Assembly (NCBI RefSeq): GCF_003788585.1 | Contig: NZ_AYKG01000001.1 | Span: 186,001-250,000, forward strand | DNA: 64,000 nt | Direction: 5' to 3' | Source: Salinisphaera japonica YTM-1 | GTDB taxonomy: Bacteria > Pseudomonadota > Gammaproteobacteria > Nevskiales > Salinisphaeraceae | In this document: positions 13,375 to 53,798 of the stretch, piece after piece | How the letters are laid out: each line of letters opens with the position of its first letter | How positions within the stretch are numbered: position 1 is the first letter of the stretch | The notes under the pieces: model-generated | Told to the model about the DNA's origin: nothing | What the model saw: only the letters and a program-made list of their open reading frames with translations | Database searches by the model: none | Program-made: the position numbers and the translations under genes

Positions 13375-14268
13375 ATGATCGACGCCCGCCCACGGTATCG
13401 CGTACCGCGCGCTGTCTGCGCCCTCGTCGTCAGCCTGACGGTTGTCTTCGCCCCGCCCGCGCTCGCCTGGGGCCCGGTGGGCCACGCCATCGTCGCCGAT
13501 ATCGCCGAGGCACACCTGAATCCGACCGCGCGCGCCAATGTCGCCAAACTCTTGAAACAGGACAGCGCGCTGCATCTGGATGACATCGCCTCCTGGGCCG
13601 ATGCCATTCGCGGCGATCACCCCAACACCCGGTCGTGGCACTACGTGGATATCCCGCTGGCCGCCGACGGTTTCAAGACTTGGCGCGACTGCGGTGCACA
13701 CGATTGCCTGGTGGTCCAGCTGATGCGCCATATCCGCGTGCTCGACGACGCCGAGGCCACGCCGCGCTCGCGCGAGGCCGCGCTGAAGTTCGCGGTGCAC
13801 CTCATGGGCGATCTGCATCAGCCGCTGCACGCCGCCGATCGCGACGACCGCGGCGGCAACGACACCCCGCTGACCTATTTCGGCCACGCCACCAATCTGC
13901 ATCGTATCTGGGACAGCACGATCATCGAACGCGCGCTGGATCTGCACACCCAGGCCGATTATCAGATCGATCACGTCGCCGTGCGGGCAGCTGCCCGTCG
14001 CCTCGATGCCGAGATCCGCCCAGCGGCGGCCAAACAATGGACTCGCGGCACGTTACCGTTACAACGCCGCGACACCGTCGTCGCCTGGACCAATGAATCC
14101 CATCGCCTGGCGCGCGCCGTGGCCTACGGTCTGCTGCCGGAGACGCCCCGTGCGCCGGACTGGTCGAACACCTACCAGAAAGAAAGCTGGCCGTATGCCA
14201 GGGTACAGCTCCAGCGCGGCGGGCGCCGTCTGGCGGCCATGCTCAACGCCGTGCTTGGGCCGGAATAA
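13375..14268 (+). CDS. Secreted S1/P1-family nuclease
   Basis: Zinc-dependent single-strand nuclease or 3'-nucleotidase, exported. A signal peptide of about 31 residues ends ALA before WGPVGHAIVADIAE; the mature N-terminal Trp supplies a zinc ligand in this family. Further metal-site blocks follow: DDIASWAD, SWHYVDIP, VHLMGDLHQPLHAADRDDRGGND and TNLHRIWDSTI. All ligands I know for S1/P1 are present. It is a single gene, convergent with the tRNA-Arg(CCU) repeat array that starts 5 bp after its stop. Confidence 0.93.
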   Translation: MIDARPRYRVPRAVCALVVSLTVVFAPPALAWGPVGHAIVADIAEAHLNPTARANVAKLLKQDSALHLDDIASWADAIRGDHPNTRSWHYVDIPLAADGFKTWRDCGAHDCLVVQLMRHIRVLDDAEATPRSREAALKFAVHLMGDLHQPLHAADRDDRGGNDTPLTYFGHATNLHRIWDSTIIERALDLHTQADYQIDHVAVRAAARRLDAEIRPAAAKQWTRGTLPLQRRDTVVAWTNESHRLARAVAYGLLPETPRAPDWSNTYQKESWPYARVQLQRGGRRLAAMLNAVLGPE

Positions 14269-14272
14269 GTCA

Positions 14273-14353
14273 TCGAACCTGTATTTTCTATGCCGCAGGT
14301 TCGACATCTATCGAAAACCATTTCATAGCACGGCCTGCGACCGCGCTATGGAA
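14273..14353 (-). repeat. Partial distal repeat of the tRNA-Arg(CCU) array
   Basis: Read on the minus strand, this 81-bp segment repeats the first part of the neighbouring full unit: the 5' hairpin, the conserved ggttttcgatag linker and the complete first stem tcgaacctg...caggttcga. It then breaks off at the S1/P1 gene end. One stem pair has changed from G-T to G-C relative to the full unit. It is the last, truncated member of the array. Confidence 0.8.
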
Positions 14354-14525
14354 TGGTGTCCCCGGCAGGAGTATTCGGCGCTTCGCGCCTCACCCTTCGG
14401 GCCAGTCGCTTTCGCGACTGTTCGTCGTGGCTGGCGCCACGCCGTCGAACCTGTATTTTCTATGTCGCAGGTTCGACGTCTATCGAAAACCATTCCATAA
14501 CACGGCATGCGACCGCGCTATGGAA
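14354..14525 (-). repeat. Full 172-bp repeat unit behind tRNA-Arg(CCU), ends in a tRNA 3' copy
   Basis: On the minus strand the unit abuts the tRNA CCA end and closes with an exact copy of the last 19 nt of the tRNA (actcctgccggggacacca, 14354-14372). In between are six hairpins: 14493-14505/14513-14525 (13 bp with G-U pairs), 14445-14453/14468-14476 (9 bp), 14426-14431/14436-14441, 14403-14409/14414-14420, 14393-14395/14399-14401 and 14377-14381/14385-14389. The order and linkers match the array behind the other tRNA-Arg. Probably part of the tRNA transcript and released by processing. Confidence 0.8.
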
Positions 14526-14602
14526 TGGTGTCCCCGGCAGGAGTCGAACCTGCGACCTGCCGCTTAGGAGGCGGCTGCTCTATCCTGCTGAGCTACGAGG
14601 AC
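14526..14602 (-). tRNA. tRNA-Arg(CCU)
   Basis: The minus strand folds as a complete cloverleaf: acceptor GTCCTCG/CGGGGAC (one T-G pair), D-stem GCTC/GAGC, anticodon stem GCCGC/GCGGC with loop CTCCTAA, so anticodon CCT reading AGG, and T-arm GCAGG-TTCGACT-CCTGC. The discriminator is A and CCA is encoded. Length 77 nt. A -10-like TATACG sits about 6 bp upstream (around 14609-14614 on the minus strand). Confidence 0.96.
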
Positions 14603-14677
14603 ACGGGCGTATAGGCTAACGTAAGGTCTCGCCGAAAACGACCACCTGTTTCACTGCCACAGAGCTTTTTCGCTGCC

Positions 14678-15487
14678 ATGCCCGACGATGCGTCTCATCT
14701 CGACAGCCATCTGCATATCGGTCCGCGCAGCGGGGGCATCGGTGAGCGCCGTATTGCGTTGCTCGAGGCCATTGGTGCGACCGGCTCGTTGACCCGGGCG
14801 GCGCAACAGGTCGGGCTGAGTTACAAGGGCGCGTGGGATGCCATCAATGCGATCAATAACCTGGCCGACACGCCGCTGGTACGTCGCAATACGGGCGGTG
14901 CGCGGGGCGGCGGCACGACGTTGACCGAGCGCGCGGTGGCGCTGGTACGAACCTATCGCGCGGCCGAGGCCGAGCAGCAGCGCTTTCTCGAACAACTCAA
15001 TCGGCGGGTGGCCTCGTTGTCCGGCGATGATCTCAACCTCATGGAACGCCTGGCCATGCAAAGCAGTGCCCGTAATCAACTGATCGGCCGGGTGACGGCT
15101 ATCCAACGATCGAACGTGAACGCCGAGATCACGATCGAGGTGGCCGGTGGCGATACCCTCGTGGCCATGATCACCGAGGCCAGCGCGGATAATCTGGGCC
15201 TGGCTGTCGGTGTGACCGTCACCGCGCTGATCAAGGCCAGCTGGCTGATCGTGGCCGCGGGCGATCTATCACACGCCCGGCTATCCAGCCGCAACCGGTT
15301 GGTGGGCACGGTCGCGCGTATCACCCGCGATACGGTGGCCAGCGAGCTCACGCTGCGCCTGCCCGGCGGTGCGCATCTGGCGGCGACCATCACGCGTGAA
15401 TCCGCTGATGCGCTGGGTCTGGCCGAGGGCGATACGGCGACCGCCCTGTTCAAGGCCTCCAGCGTGATTGTCTCACCGGCCGACTAG
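14678..15487 (+). CDS. modE: ModE-family molybdate-responsive regulator
   Basis: Transcription factor of 269 residues with the two ModE parts: an N-terminal winged helix of the LysR-like type (RRIALLEAIGATGSLTRAAQQVGLSYKGAWDAINAINNL) and two consecutive Mop/TOBE domains, starting RNQLIGRVTAIQRSNVNAEITIEV and RNRLVGTVARITRDTVASELTLRL, which bind molybdate. Molybdate-bound ModE normally represses modABC. No modABC is present here; it stands alone before recC with 29 bp between them. A MOSC gene lies 4 kb upstream. Confidence 0.93.
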   Translation: MPDDASHLDSHLHIGPRSGGIGERRIALLEAIGATGSLTRAAQQVGLSYKGAWDAINAINNLADTPLVRRNTGGARGGGTTLTERAVALVRTYRAAEAEQQRFLEQLNRRVASLSGDDLNLMERLAMQSSARNQLIGRVTAIQRSNVNAEITIEVAGGDTLVAMITEASADNLGLAVGVTVTALIKASWLIVAAGDLSHARLSSRNRLVGTVARITRDTVASELTLRLPGGAHLAATITRESADALGLAEGDTATALFKASSVIVSPAD

Positions 15488-15516
15488 CCTCCGGGCTGTC
15501 CTAGCCGAGCTGCTGC

Positions 15517-18500
15517 ATGTTCTATCTCTATCATCACAACGATCTGTCGCGCCTGGCCGATCTGTTCGCCGTGCTTCGTTCACGCCGGCGGGTATCCCCG
15601 CTGGCGTGCGATACCGTGCTGGCCCCCAACGCCGGTATCGGGCGCTGGCTGCGGATCCAGCTGGCCGAGAGTGAGGGCATCGCGGCCAATATCGACGGCG
15701 AGCTACCGGGCGAGTTCATCTGGCGTCTGTTGGGCCGCGTTCTGCCCGAAGCCGATACCGATGGTCATCACTTCCAGGGCGACTGCCTGCCCTGGCATCT
15801 CTACGCCGCGCTGCCCGAGATTGCCCGCGACGTGCCCGAAGTCGCTGATTATCTCGGCCATCCCGTCGCCGAGGTACGGCGCTATCAGCTGGCACGCCAG
15901 CTGGCCGATGTCTTTGATGAATATCTGTACTACCGCGCCGATATGCTGGCCCGCTGGGAAGCCGGCGAGGTGCCGACGACCACGCCCGGGCGCTGGCAGG
16001 CACGGGTCTGGCACTGGCTGACGCGCTCTCACCGGCTGGGTAGCGATCATCGCGCGGCTGCGCTGCGGCGCTTCATCGCCGGGCTGAGCGATGATGGTGA
16101 CCGCGCGTTTCACCAAAAGGTCATCGCCCGCTGCCCGGCCGATCTCTATTGTTTTGGCCTGGTGGCGCTGCCGCCGGATCACCTGCGGTTTCTCTATGCC
16201 CTGGCCGCGCATATCGACGTGCATTTTCTCTTGCCCAACCCCAGCGAGGCCTATTGGGGTGATATCACTTCCCACCGGGTCGCCCTGGACCTGCCGGCCG
16301 TTGATGATGCCGACGAAAACGCCTTGTTGCCGGGCGAGGCAGCCATCGAGGCCGGCCATCCGCTGCTCTCCGGGCTCGGGCGCATGGCACGCGATACCCT
16401 GCGCCTGCTCTACTCGGACGAATTCACCGGCATGATCGAGCCGGAGCTGGGCGAGGCCATGGCCTATACCCACCCGCCCGACGATTCGCTGTTGCATCGT
16501 ATCCAGGGCGATATCGTCACGCTGGAATGTCGCGACAGCCCTCAGGGCATGGACAGCGCTGATGTCTCGTTCGAGGTGCACACCTGTCATAGCCGCCTGC
16601 GCGAGATTCAGGTGCTTCAGGATCAGCTGCTCGATCGCCTGGCCCGCGACGATGCCCGCGTGGCCGCCGGCGAGATCGCGTCCGCCGCACGGCTGGCCCC
16701 GCGCGATATTATCGTCATGCTGCCGGACGTGGCGGCCTATACCCCGGCGATCCAGGCGGTGTTCGGCGGCGCCTCGGCCGATCGCTATCTGCCGTTCGGC
16801 CTGGCCGATCGGGCCCGGTCGGCAGCCCATCCGATCGTGGGCTGCGTGGCCGATCTGCTGGATCTGCCGTTATCGCGCTGGCAGGCCAGCCAGCTGCTGG
16901 ATCTGTTGGCCGTACCGGCCGTCGCCCGCCGGTTTCGGCTGGATGAGAGCGAGCTCGCGGCACTGGCCCGGTGGATTGAAGCCGCCGGCATCCGCTGGGG
17001 CCGCGACGGCGATCATCGCGCCGAGATGGGCGCTGGCGACTATGACCAGAACAGCTGGCGCTTCGGGCTGGACCGGCTGCTGCTCGGTGTGGCCCAGGCC
17101 GATGATGAAACCCTGATCGACGGCGTCGCCCCCTGGTCGGATCTGGAGGGCGGCATCACGGCCGCGCTGGGTAAGCTCTGGCGCTTTGAAGACACCCTGG
17201 CTACTTTTGCCGACGTGCTGACCGTGCCCGCCACGCCCGGCGAATGGCAGACACGGCTGAACAATCTCGTCGATCAGATGATCGCCCCCGGCCCGGATGC
17301 GCCCGGCGAACAACGCGCCCTGGACGCACTGCGCGGCGTGTTCGCCTGTCTGGACCGGGCCGAAGCCTGCACGGCCGAGAAATCGCTGGCCGCCGACCGG
17401 CGTCTGTCATGGCAGGCAGTACGCGATGATCTGCGTGCCCGGTTGGACAGCGTGGCCGATCGCCAGCCGTTTCTGGCCGGCGGCATCACTTTTTGCGGCA
17501 TGGTGCCGCTGCGCGCGGTGCCGTTTCGTCTGGTCTGCGTGCTGGGCATGAACGACACGGCCTTCCCGCGCCAGGATACGGCGCGGGCGTTCAACGTCAT
17601 GTTCGCGGCCCCGCGTCTGGGCGATCGCAATATCCGCGATGATGACCGGCTGCTCTTTCTGCAGGCGCTGACTGCCGCCCGCGATCAGTTCTATATCAGT
17701 TATATCGGTCAGGACATCCGCACCGGGGAGACATTGCCGCCCTCGCCCCTGGTCGGCGAAACACTGGATTTCATTCACCAGGCCTATTTTCGCGATGCGC
17801 CGCGGCGCGACTTCGACGCCCGGCTGATCCATCGCCAGCCCATGCAGCCGTTTTCGGCGCGTTATTTCATGCCGGCGGATACCACGCGAGACAGCCGAAT
17901 CTTCACGTATGCCGAAGCATGGCGGACAGCCAGTCGCGCCGCACAGGCCGCTCGGCGCGAGGCCGATACGTTCATGGGCCCGGCCGAGGCCGCCATCGAA
18001 GCCCCGGCCGAGCCGATCGAAGCGCTCGATCTGGCCACGCTGAAACGATTCTTCGACCACCCCGCGCGGGCGTTCTTTCGTGATCGGCTACAGCTGGATC
18101 TGGACGCCGACCCGGCCGCACTTGTCGATGAAGAACCGCTGGAGCTGTCGCCGCTGGCGGCCGCCGGCCTGCGCAACCGCCTGCTGGCCACGGCCGAGAC
18201 CCATGCCCAGGACACCCTGGACACGGCGCCAAGCGCGCTTGAAATCGCGCGCGGCAGCCTGCCGCCACCGCCGCTGGCCGCAGCCCGCTACACCGAACAG
18301 GCCGAGGCAGTGAATCGGCTCTTGCCGCTCGCCCGCGACTGGCAAGCCCAGGCCACACCCGACAACGTGGACATCCGGCTCGACGATATCGCCGGCCTGC
18401 GCCTGACCGGGCGGATCGAGGGCCTGGCTGCAGGCACGCTGCGCCGGCTCATTCCCAACAAGCTCAAGACCCGTCATCGTCTGCGGGCCTGGATCGATTA

Positions 18501-18918
18501 TCTGGCGCTGGTGGCCGACAGTCACACCGCCGAGCTTGCCATCGCCGGTTTCGACCCGGACGAGAAAACTCTGGACAGCGTGTGTTTCAAGGCCCAGGTG
18601 ACGCCGGCCCAGGCTCGCGAGACGCTGACCGGCCTGATCGAGATCTATCGCCGCGGCCAGCGCCAGGCCCAGTATTTCCACCCCGATCTGGCCGATGCCT
18701 ATAACCCGGCACAGACCAAGGCGTTCGAGAATCTATCCTTTCGTTTTCGCGCCGGGGACTATCGCGCCCATCATCTGCTACGTGATCCGTATTTCGCCCT
18801 GTTGCTGGGCCCGGCCGAGGCACCGCTCGGCGAAAGCGCGGCCACCAGTGTCTTCATTGCCCAGGTCGAGCAGATCACCGGGCCCATGAACGCGGCCCTG
18901 CAGGCACATGCCGTGTAA
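15517..18918 (+). CDS. recC: Exodeoxyribonuclease V gamma subunit RecC
   Basis: Large scaffold subunit of the RecBCD helicase-nuclease, which reads Chi and splits the duplex. 1133 residues, near E. coli RecC (1122). It opens MFYLYHHNDLSRLADLFA and keeps the family blocks VLAPNAGIGRWLRIQLAE, ADLYCFGLVALPPDHLRFLYALA, GGITFCGMVPLRAVPFRLVCVLGMND and LPPSPLVGETLDF. The helicase-like folds lack working Walker motifs, as usual for RecC. Unlike in many relatives, recB does not follow directly: an EEP gene and a MITE-like element intervene. Confidence 0.95.
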   Translation: MFYLYHHNDLSRLADLFAVLRSRRRVSPLACDTVLAPNAGIGRWLRIQLAESEGIAANIDGELPGEFIWRLLGRVLPEADTDGHHFQGDCLPWHLYAALPEIARDVPEVADYLGHPVAEVRRYQLARQLADVFDEYLYYRADMLARWEAGEVPTTTPGRWQARVWHWLTRSHRLGSDHRAAALRRFIAGLSDDGDRAFHQKVIARCPADLYCFGLVALPPDHLRFLYALAAHIDVHFLLPNPSEAYWGDITSHRVALDLPAVDDADENALLPGEAAIEAGHPLLSGLGRMARDTLRLLYSDEFTGMIEPELGEAMAYTHPPDDSLLHRIQGDIVTLECRDSPQGMDSADVSFEVHTCHSRLREIQVLQDQLLDRLARDDARVAAGEIASAARLAPRDIIVMLPDVAAYTPAIQAVFGGASADRYLPFGLADRARSAAHPIVGCVADLLDLPLSRWQASQLLDLLAVPAVARRFRLDESELAALARWIEAAGIRWGRDGDHRAEMGAGDYDQNSWRFGLDRLLLGVAQADDETLIDGVAPWSDLEGGITAALGKLWRFEDTLATFADVLTVPATPGEWQTRLNNLVDQMIAPGPDAPGEQRALDALRGVFACLDRAEACTAEKSLAADRRLSWQAVRDDLRARLDSVADRQPFLAGGITFCGMVPLRAVPFRLVCVLGMNDTAFPRQDTARAFNVMFAAPRLGDRNIRDDDRLLFLQALTAARDQFYISYIGQDIRTGETLPPSPLVGETLDFIHQAYFRDAPRRDFDARLIHRQPMQPFSARYFMPADTTRDSRIFTYAEAWRTASRAAQAARREADTFMGPAEAAIEAPAEPIEALDLATLKRFFDHPARAFFRDRLQLDLDADPAALVDEEPLELSPLAAAGLRNRLLATAETHAQDTLDTAPSALEIARGSLPPPPLAAARYTEQAEAVNRLLPLARDWQAQATPDNVDIRLDDIAGLRLTGRIEGLAAGTLRRLIPNKLKTRHRLRAWIDYLALVADSHTAELAIAGFDPDEKTLDSVCFKAQVTPAQARETLTGLIEIYRRGQRQAQYFHPDLADAYNPAQTKAFENLSFRFRAGDYRAHHLLRDPYFALLLGPAEAPLGESAATSVFIAQVEQITGPMNAALQAHAV

Positions 18919-52981: not shown

Positions 52982-53058
52982 GCGCCCGTAGCTCAGCTGG
53001 ATAGAGCACCGGCCTTCGAAGCCGGGTGTCGCAGGTTCGAATCCTGCCGGGCGCACCA
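52982..53058 (+). tRNA. tRNA-Arg(UCG)
   Basis: Full cloverleaf: acceptor GCGCCCG/CGGGCGC, D-stem GCTC/GAGC, anticodon stem CCGGC/GCCGG with loop CTTCGAA, so anticodon TCG reading CGA, T-arm GCAGG-TTCGAAT-CCTGC, discriminator A and encoded CCA. Length 77 nt. Three tandem repeats carrying its 3' end follow directly. Confidence 0.97.
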
Positions 53059-53243
53059 ATACCTAGGCGCTCCTCTTGGCTTTCAGAGTTCTGGCGGCGT
53101 AATCGGAGCCCATTCGAACCTGCGACACAATCAGTAAGTCAGGTTCGACGGCTGCGCAACGCGCAGACGAACAGTACGGCAGTGCCGTACTGGCCCCGTA
53201 GGGGTGAGCGGCAAAGCCGCGAATAATCCTGCCGGGCGCACCA
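53059..53243 (+). repeat. Repeat unit 1 behind tRNA-Arg(UCG) (185 bp, ends in tRNA 3' copy)
   Basis: It abuts the tRNA CCA and ends with an exact copy of the last 19 nt of the tRNA (aatcctgccgggcgcacca, 53225-53243; original 53040-53058). Five hairpins precede it: 53114-53122/53140-53148 (9 bp), 53152-53157/53161-53166, 53172-53180/53184-53192, 53194-53197/53201-53204 and 53208-53212/53216-53220. The first 50 bp differ from units 2 and 3 and resemble the truncated fourth unit. Confidence 0.88.
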
Positions 53244-53429
53244 TACACAGGATGCTTGTTCAGAGTTTTCGGAAGCTTGAAAGCTCGAACGAAGCCCCTT
53301 CGAACCTGCGACACAATCAACAAGTCAGGTTCGACAGCTGCGCAACGCGCAGATGAACAGTACGGCAACGCCGTACTGGCCCCGAAGGGGTGAGCGGCAA
53401 AGCCGCGAATAATCCTGCCGGGCGCACCA
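53244..53429 (+). repeat. Repeat unit 2 behind tRNA-Arg(UCG) (186 bp)
   Basis: Second tandem unit, nearly identical to unit 3 over its whole length and to unit 1 from the first conserved hairpin onward. It ends with the same exact 19-nt tRNA 3' copy (53411-53429). Its loops differ from unit 1 (AAC for AGT in stem 3, GAA for GTA in stem 4) while the stems are kept. Confidence 0.88.
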
Positions 53430-53615
53430 TCAGCAGGATGCTTGTTCAAAGTTTTCGGAAGCTTGAAAGCTCGAACGAAGCCCATTCGAACCTGCGACAC
53501 GATCAACAAGTCAGGTTCGACGGCTGCGCAACGCGCAGACGAACAGTACGGCAACGCCGTACTGGCCCCGAAGGGGTGAGCGGCAAAGCCGCGAATAATC
53601 CTGCCGGGCACACCA
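53430..53615 (+). repeat. Repeat unit 3 behind tRNA-Arg(UCG) (186 bp)
   Basis: Third unit. Its tRNA 3' copy (53597-53615) has one change, gggcacacca for gggcgcacca, so it could no longer form a perfect acceptor stem. The hairpins are preserved. Confidence 0.88.
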
Positions 53616-53699
53616 ATACTGAGATGGTCTTCTAAGCCTTCAGAATCCTGATGCCATGATCGGAGCCCATTCGAACCTGCGACACGATCACTTATTCAG
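53616..53699 (+). repeat. Truncated fourth unit of the tRNA-Arg(UCG) array
   Basis: It resembles the start of unit 1 (gatcggagcccattcgaacctgcg is recognisable in two pieces: gatcggagccc and attcgaacctgcgacac) and ends just after the first hairpin, here reduced to acctg/caggt. The array therefore closes in the same hairpin at which the tRNA-Arg(CCU) array closes. Confidence 0.75.
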
Positions 53700-53798
53700 G
53701 TGCCGTCGCCACCACGCCCGCGACACCTATTCCGTGCATGCACCGGCCGCCGATGTCATTAGTCAGCGCGCGATGCCCGGTGAGTATCACGTCACTGT

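Follow-up and report, generated by a model that had tools for sequence, protein, structure and literature searches.

Here, we report that the tRNA-Arg(CCU) gene of Salinisphaera japonica YTM-1 is followed by what is probably an RtT-type tRNA-tail array, in which a mobile-looking hairpin cassette sits in tandem copies of the tRNA tail that would be maintained by recombination and transcribed as a tRNA trailer. We assign this reading a probability of roughly 0.7. Coordinates are those of the window, i.e., the whole 64,000-nt stretch of DNA that was analysed, and the genome of this strain is referred to as the home genome. The general kind of element is already known, but the anatomy of the T-loop, the variety of tRNAs involved, the locus-specific tracking by both direct and inverted copies, and the presence of a common cassette in these arrays and in ERIC repeats appear to be new in the searchable literature.

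Anatomy of the array behind tRNA-Arg(CCU)

The first-pass annotation had described one full 172-bp unit with its own 19-nt 3' copy and an 81-bp truncated unit after tRNA-Arg(CCU), and this description was confirmed to the base (Table 1). The tRNA gene is intact and encodes its CCA, and a 100-nt direct repeat of 95% identity (14273-14372 and 14445-14544) recurs at a spacing of 172. The 3' terminus of the full unit, ACTCCTGCCGGGGACACCA, is identical to the last 19 nt of tRNA-Arg(CCU), in agreement with the earlier claim that it is the local tRNA whose end is copied. Beyond this tail, the T-arm 5' strand is also represented in the unit by 9 nt (CAGGTTCGA), and the T-arm recurs in inverted orientation over 14 nt. 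Read in the direction of the tRNA, the order is CCA, hairpin, inverted T-arm copy, T-arm 5' strand, cassette, and finally T-arm 3' strand, acceptor and CCA. The 19-nt copy thus corresponds to the distal half of a T-arm copy that the cassette has opened at its T-loop.

Table 1. Features of the arrays behind tRNA-Arg(CCU) and tRNA-Arg(UCG) in the window
Feature	Position	Strand	Evidence
tRNA-Arg(CCU)	14526..14602	-	ARAGORN; Rfam RF00005, 67.7 bits
Full 172-nt unit	14354..14525	-	Direct repeat at spacing 172; RtT model over 14499-14354, 40.2 bits, E 1.7e-6
Hairpin immediately 3' of the tRNA CCA, TTCCATAGCGCGG...TTATGGAATGG	14490..14525	-	Inverted repeat; fold
Inverted (antisense) T-arm copy GTCGAACCTGCGAC, perfect complement of tRNA nt 14543-14556	14464..14477	-	Inverted repeat of 14 nt, 100%; class I antisense
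T-arm 5' strand copy	14445..14453	-	Sequence; alignments
Four-hairpin cassette, 72 nt, in the T-loop of the copied T-arm	14373..14444	-	Models R1 (80.2 bits, the sequence being part of the R1 training set) and R2 (76.8 bits); covariation
tRNA 3' end copied exactly over 19 nt, CCA included	14354..14372	-	Sequence comparison
Truncated second unit, 81 nt (hairpin, inverted T-arm copy, T-arm 5' strand)	14273..14353	-	Breaks off at the cassette start position
tRNA-Arg(UCG) of the sister array	52982..53058	+	ARAGORN; Rfam RF00005
UCG unit 1, 185 nt, 19-nt copy exact	53059..53243	+	Repeat analysis
UCG unit 2, 186 nt, copy exact	53244..53429	+	Repeat analysis
UCG unit 3, 186 nt, copy with 1 mismatch	53430..53615	+	Repeat analysis
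UCG truncated last unit	53616..53702	+	Repeat analysis

Copies of tRNA 3' ends downstream of tRNA genes are the usual trace of integrase-mediated insertion, and by this precedent the copies might be attachment sites, either left over or acting as decoys, of integrative elements that insert at the 3' ends of tRNAs. We consider this origin very improbable, because the units are only ~140-215 nt long, stand in tandem and are homologous across many tRNA identities, because the copied T-arm is split by one common cassette, and because an inverted T-arm copy and concerted evolution are foreign to att remnants. No integrase lies in the ~170 nt between the direct repeats, and testing of the neighbours of the array (S1/P1 nuclease, ModE-like regulator and RecC) revealed neither an integrase nor an island. 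An att-site remnant was rejected as a candidate on its size, tandem order and split T-arm.

About 4 nt separate the end of the array from the stop codon of the S1/P1 nuclease gene, which is convergent with it; cis control of a downstream gene is therefore unlikely. The neighbouring genes (13375-18918 of the window) encode this S1/P1 nuclease, a ModE-like regulator with TOBE domains and RecC.

Arrays behind other tRNAs of the home genome

The sister array behind tRNA-Arg(UCG) spans 53059-53702 and has the same anatomical plan. Open reading frames overlap the arrays (e.g., 53063-53611); their coding potential was set aside because the covarying RNA fold accounts for the constraint.

Among the 46 CCA-encoding tRNA genes of the home genome, six candidate arrays were found, five of which share the same cassette. 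Cassette-bearing 19-nt tail copies follow the tRNAs for Tyr, Arg(UCU), Arg(UCG), Arg(CCU) and Gln(CUG), and a truncated remnant lies behind both Arg(CCG) and Arg(ACG), so that all five arginine tRNAs carry, or once carried, an array. The idea that the unit might be limited to tRNA-Arg did not survive this survey, since Tyr and Gln carry it in the home genome, and it also fails elsewhere, where Ser, Gln, Pro, Lys, Glu, Val and Phe tRNAs and tmRNA carry the unit. The downstream copy behind tRNA-Asp is simply a second tRNA-Asp gene. Behind tRNA-Val(GAC) (L011, G000:C1:149505-152578), a 22-nt copy of the 3' end is located 174 nt downstream together with an inverted T-arm copy; its insert differs from the cassette and is matched by neither model R1 nor model R2, and this array is perhaps an independent or decayed analogue.

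Relationship to RtT RNA

RtT RNA is usually described from the tyrT operon of E. coli, with few reports from other bacteria. The Rfam RtT model (RF00391) matched the CCU unit by cmscan with 40.2 bits (E 1.7e-6) and the UCG units with 17.7-28.1 bits, all under the gathering score of 45, and two tRNA-Tyr units of the same genome reached 58.7 and 55.8 bits, above it. In the opposite direction, model R1, which was built from home-genome units only and contains no E. coli sequence, detected all three E. coli rttR units (38.3-41.1 bits, E 2e-7 to 9e-7). By these reciprocal model scores, the CCU array is homologous to RtT in its structured core. The CCU unit also stands behind a tRNA and terminates with a copy of that tRNA's 3' end, as RtT is defined to do. 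We judge from the model scores that the array is of RtT type, while under Rfam's threshold rule it is not a member of RF00391.

The likeness to E. coli rttR (RF00391, tyrT-tyrV) extends over the whole layout: tandem units of ~180 nt stand behind a tRNA and each ends in the tRNA's 3' end, the cassette core is the same (GGCCCGAAGGGYGAG..CGARTA), and the plan is AAGGTTCGA, cassette, ATCCTTCCCCCACCACCA. There are also differences. The Salinisphaera units follow tRNAs for Arg, Gln and others, and the inverted copy of E. coli rttR belongs to class II (complement of T3 plus acceptor) whereas that of the CCU array belongs to class I (complement of the T-arm 5' side). Covariation in RtT has been discussed previously (PMC7657543, PMC8250186), and rtT-like sequences have been noted in interspersed elements that precede several enterobacterial genes (PMC2965389).

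Distribution in other genomes

Units were present in all 14 genomes of the genus Salinisphaera that were examined and in 63 of the 274 genomes of a survey of the class Gammaproteobacteria. A same-strand tRNA was found upstream of 78/117 fetched clusters, nearly always one for Ser, Gln, Arg or Pro, and most of these 78 have the T-arm copy 40-100 nt past the CCA. Overall, units mostly follow tRNAs for Ser, Arg, Gln, Pro or Tyr. Named carriers include Marinobacter, Alcanivorax, Leclercia, Enterovibrio and Mariprofundus. In a survey of the phylum, one family outside the class (f191) was rich in units; named matches suggest that it is zetaproteobacterial. Thus, the cassette occurs in Gammaproteobacteria and apparently also in Zetaproteobacteria.

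The first-pass annotation had reasoned that the same unit, if scattered over the genome unconnected to tRNAs, would be a generic interspersed repeat. In the home genome there is no strong match of R1 or R2 away from tRNAs, all strong matches being tRNA arrays, which contradicts a generic repeat there. In some other genomes the cassette is indeed interspersed in places that lack a tRNA copy, e.g., in ERIC. Against a generic repeat that came to lie beside tRNAs by chance, 83 of 107 pattern matches in named genomes follow a tRNA (39 of them Ser, 26 Arg and 13 Gln) within a narrow range of distances, and the T-loop GTTCGAA is found in 71/77 array tRNAs vs 18/46 tRNAs of the home genome (p 3e-10). 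A generic repeat that adjoins tRNAs by chance is hence scarcely credible to us.

One cluster was located 73 nt behind tmRNA (L169, G250:C57). At two further loci (L128 of G048 and L156 of G086), units lie behind sequences that resemble the tmRNA 3' end, the former with an exact tail copy.

Local maintenance of the tail copies

The 3' end of tRNA-Arg(CCU) itself varies, with 4 different 19-nt ends among seven Salinisphaera species. The first full copy has 0 mismatches to the tRNA of its own species in six of the seven, and 2 in the seventh. Since the 19-nt copies follow their own tRNA between species, they are maintained locally, as the first-pass annotation had proposed as one of two possibilities. 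Cassette identity is highest within an array (0.857), lower for the same isoacceptor across species (0.688) and lowest between different isoacceptors of one genome (0.630), a ranking which implies that arrays descend with their locus and are homogenised there. The simplest cause of the identity between copy and tRNA would be recombination with the tRNA. These loci offer a clean bacterial case of non-coding copies that are kept in step with a tRNA gene.

Structural constraint and a possible small RNA

In an alignment of 117 distinct Salinisphaera and E. coli sequences, which was fitted to the very structure under test, 93.1% of cells were paired, changes occurred on both sides in 27 of 34 pairs, and the covariation score was 0.435 vs 0.130 for shuffled data. 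G-U cells outnumbered A-C cells (168 vs 35 and 232 vs 42), which indicates that one strand folds, namely the strand that continues the tRNA. The cassette is under strong strand-specific structural constraint. Such strand-specific folding fits RNA, and it fits single-stranded DNA as well.

One further reading is that the unit yields a trans-acting small RNA (rtT RNA) from the tRNA transcript, which would modulate starvation responses, the tRNA copy serving its processing. The constraint on one strand is in line with this reading, as are the Northern signals reported for RtT RNAs in Actinobacillus (PMC4986893); a passage of the same paper, citing Bosl and Kersten (1991), describes release of rtT RNA from tyrT and effects on amino-acid limitation and the stringent response. 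On the other side, the poor conservation of stem sequences, the absence of the unit in 211/274 genomes, the reversed cassettes and the interspersed copies all suggest that there is no single conserved trans target. On balance, we regard a trans-acting role as unlikely.

Inverted copies and a possible refolding of the tRNA

A near-perfect complement of the 3' half of the local tRNA was present in 42 of 75 spacers (27 of class I and 15 of class II), and shuffled spacers gave 0 and 1, respectively. The complements track their own tRNA, with 0.52 mismatches in 14 against it vs 3.35 against swapped tRNAs (11 distinct T-arm windows). Such tracking could reflect a cis-acting switch of tRNA maturation in read-through transcripts: the inverted copy would invade the T-arm, and the T-arm/acceptor copy of the unit might then pair with the 5' acceptor strand of the tRNA, forming a long alternative tRNA with a hairpin cluster in its T-loop.

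Several results point in this direction. At some loci (L105, L158) the complement is kept though the 3' copy has been lost, folding predicts pairing between complement and tRNA (0.85-1.0) in the 28 loci shown, and the energy of the alternative minus that of the canonical fold was 10.6 kcal/mol vs 5.1 with shuffled spacers, 35 of 57 lying above all 8 shuffles. Other results argue against such a switch. Shuffled spacers likewise let the acceptor pair with the unit copy in the predictions (0.83 vs 0.87), which makes this part non-specific; with controls giving nearly equal acceptor pairing, we rejected the long alternative tRNA as thermodynamic proof. In addition, the acceptor copy is lost in 18/75 units, a terminator-like hairpin precedes the complement in many spacers (43/77), and the folding models omit tertiary contacts, modification and processing kinetics of the tRNA. 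Taken together, a maturation switch seems unlikely, and its conditional form, in which the inverted copy would open the T-arm and the T-arm, cassette and acceptor copy of the unit would complete a long tRNA-like molecule, seems more doubtful still. If true, a refolding switch would account for both the inverted and the 19-nt copies tracking the local tRNA, and the arrays make it testable whether a tRNA trailer can refold its own tRNA.

The cassette as a separable insert

The frame of each unit is the local T-arm/acceptor copy, the T-loop of which is interrupted after GTTCGA by the four-hairpin cassette. At ten loci, the cassette interrupts a tRNA copy that is otherwise recognisable and that immediately precedes an intact tRNA with the same anticodon. 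In these whole copies it occupies the T-loop (Gln, Val and Ser) or the D-loop (Ser), and both loops in two copies; excising the insert and joining its flanks restores, with no target duplication, an intact tRNA, whose anticodon is that of the intact neighbour. The tRNA-Phe units of two enterobacterial genomes are framed in the same way, with a tail copy that is exact over 17 nt, but their cassette is reversed. The same two genomes carry the cassette, matched by RtT model R2, inside a repeat at CAGGA then A, with many repeats that lack it alongside; from its core sequence, we take this host repeat to be ERIC. The sequence of the first hairpin (hp1) was repeated in 12/12 genomes tested, and a reversed control pattern gave no match. 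The cassette is a repeat that is separable from the tRNA frame, with the tRNA copy as its host, and the sequence contexts support a mobile-looking cassette. By-locus inheritance argues against recent movement in Salinisphaera.

The titles of two 1997 papers, by Sharp (PMID 9218779) and by Cromie, Collins and Leach (PMID 9218778), refer to insertions in ERIC/IRU repeats. The likeness to these inserts is that of a hairpin-rich insert in a palindromic host whose fold is kept. The ERIC palindrome with its terminal inverted repeats is absent from the CCU array, and it is only the cassette that the array has in common with the ERIC inserts elsewhere. ERIC, YPAL, RUP and RPE are MITE-like palindromic repeats that are small, non-coding, stem-loop forming and interspersed, with no known transposase (PMC2229807). 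The cassette resembles them in all these features but, in the cases read, lacks TA-bounded terminal inverted repeats and any target duplication. With REP/REPIN elements and their RAYT, it shares the nature of short strand-specific intergenic hairpins, whereas its association with a Y1 transposase is weak and non-obligatory: PF01797 was found in 51/63 carriers vs 135/211 non-carriers (Fisher p 0.013, with no correction for kinship or genome size), and PF01797 was not found in 12 carriers. With so weak an association, a Y1 transposase is at most a candidate mover of the cassette.

For the RtT-type tail array as a whole, which we favour, the following picture emerges. Each unit has a spacer with a hairpin, often terminator-like, and at many loci the T-arm of the local tRNA is also present there in inverted form. 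The same T-arm is in addition copied directly, together with the acceptor 3' strand and its CCA, and the T-loop of this copy is split by a cassette that would once have been mobile, or may still be so, and that would invade palindromes at their loops, with GA as the entry site. The copies would be kept identical through recombination or gene conversion, both with the neighbouring tRNA gene and between units. Read-through would transcribe the units as a 3' trailer of the tRNA, from which a small RNA might be released by analogy with E. coli tyrT.

These findings suggest that a widespread hairpin cassette enters loops of tRNAs (T-loop and D-loop) and tmRNA as well as ERIC, RtT being one of its locations. 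Such a common cassette would join several separate repeat puzzles, and offers many natural replicates for comparing cassette, host loop and tRNA.

Some inserts and contexts of other types were also seen. A tRNA-Ser copy (L195, G035:C167) carries, besides a D-loop cassette, a second palindromic insert of 58 nt after the acceptor stem, which is another kind of insert with an apparent TGGCC repeat on its flanks. In two genomes, the cassette lies within longer dispersed repeats of ~250 and 234 bp (L224, L235 and L244 in G122; L228 and L239 in G266), with eight copies in G122 and no adjoining tRNA in the stretches read. Finally, a shortened cassette, consisting of hp1 with hp3 and hp4, is present in four tandem copies ~68 nt apart at one locus (L246, G125:C1 near 1407203-1407424).
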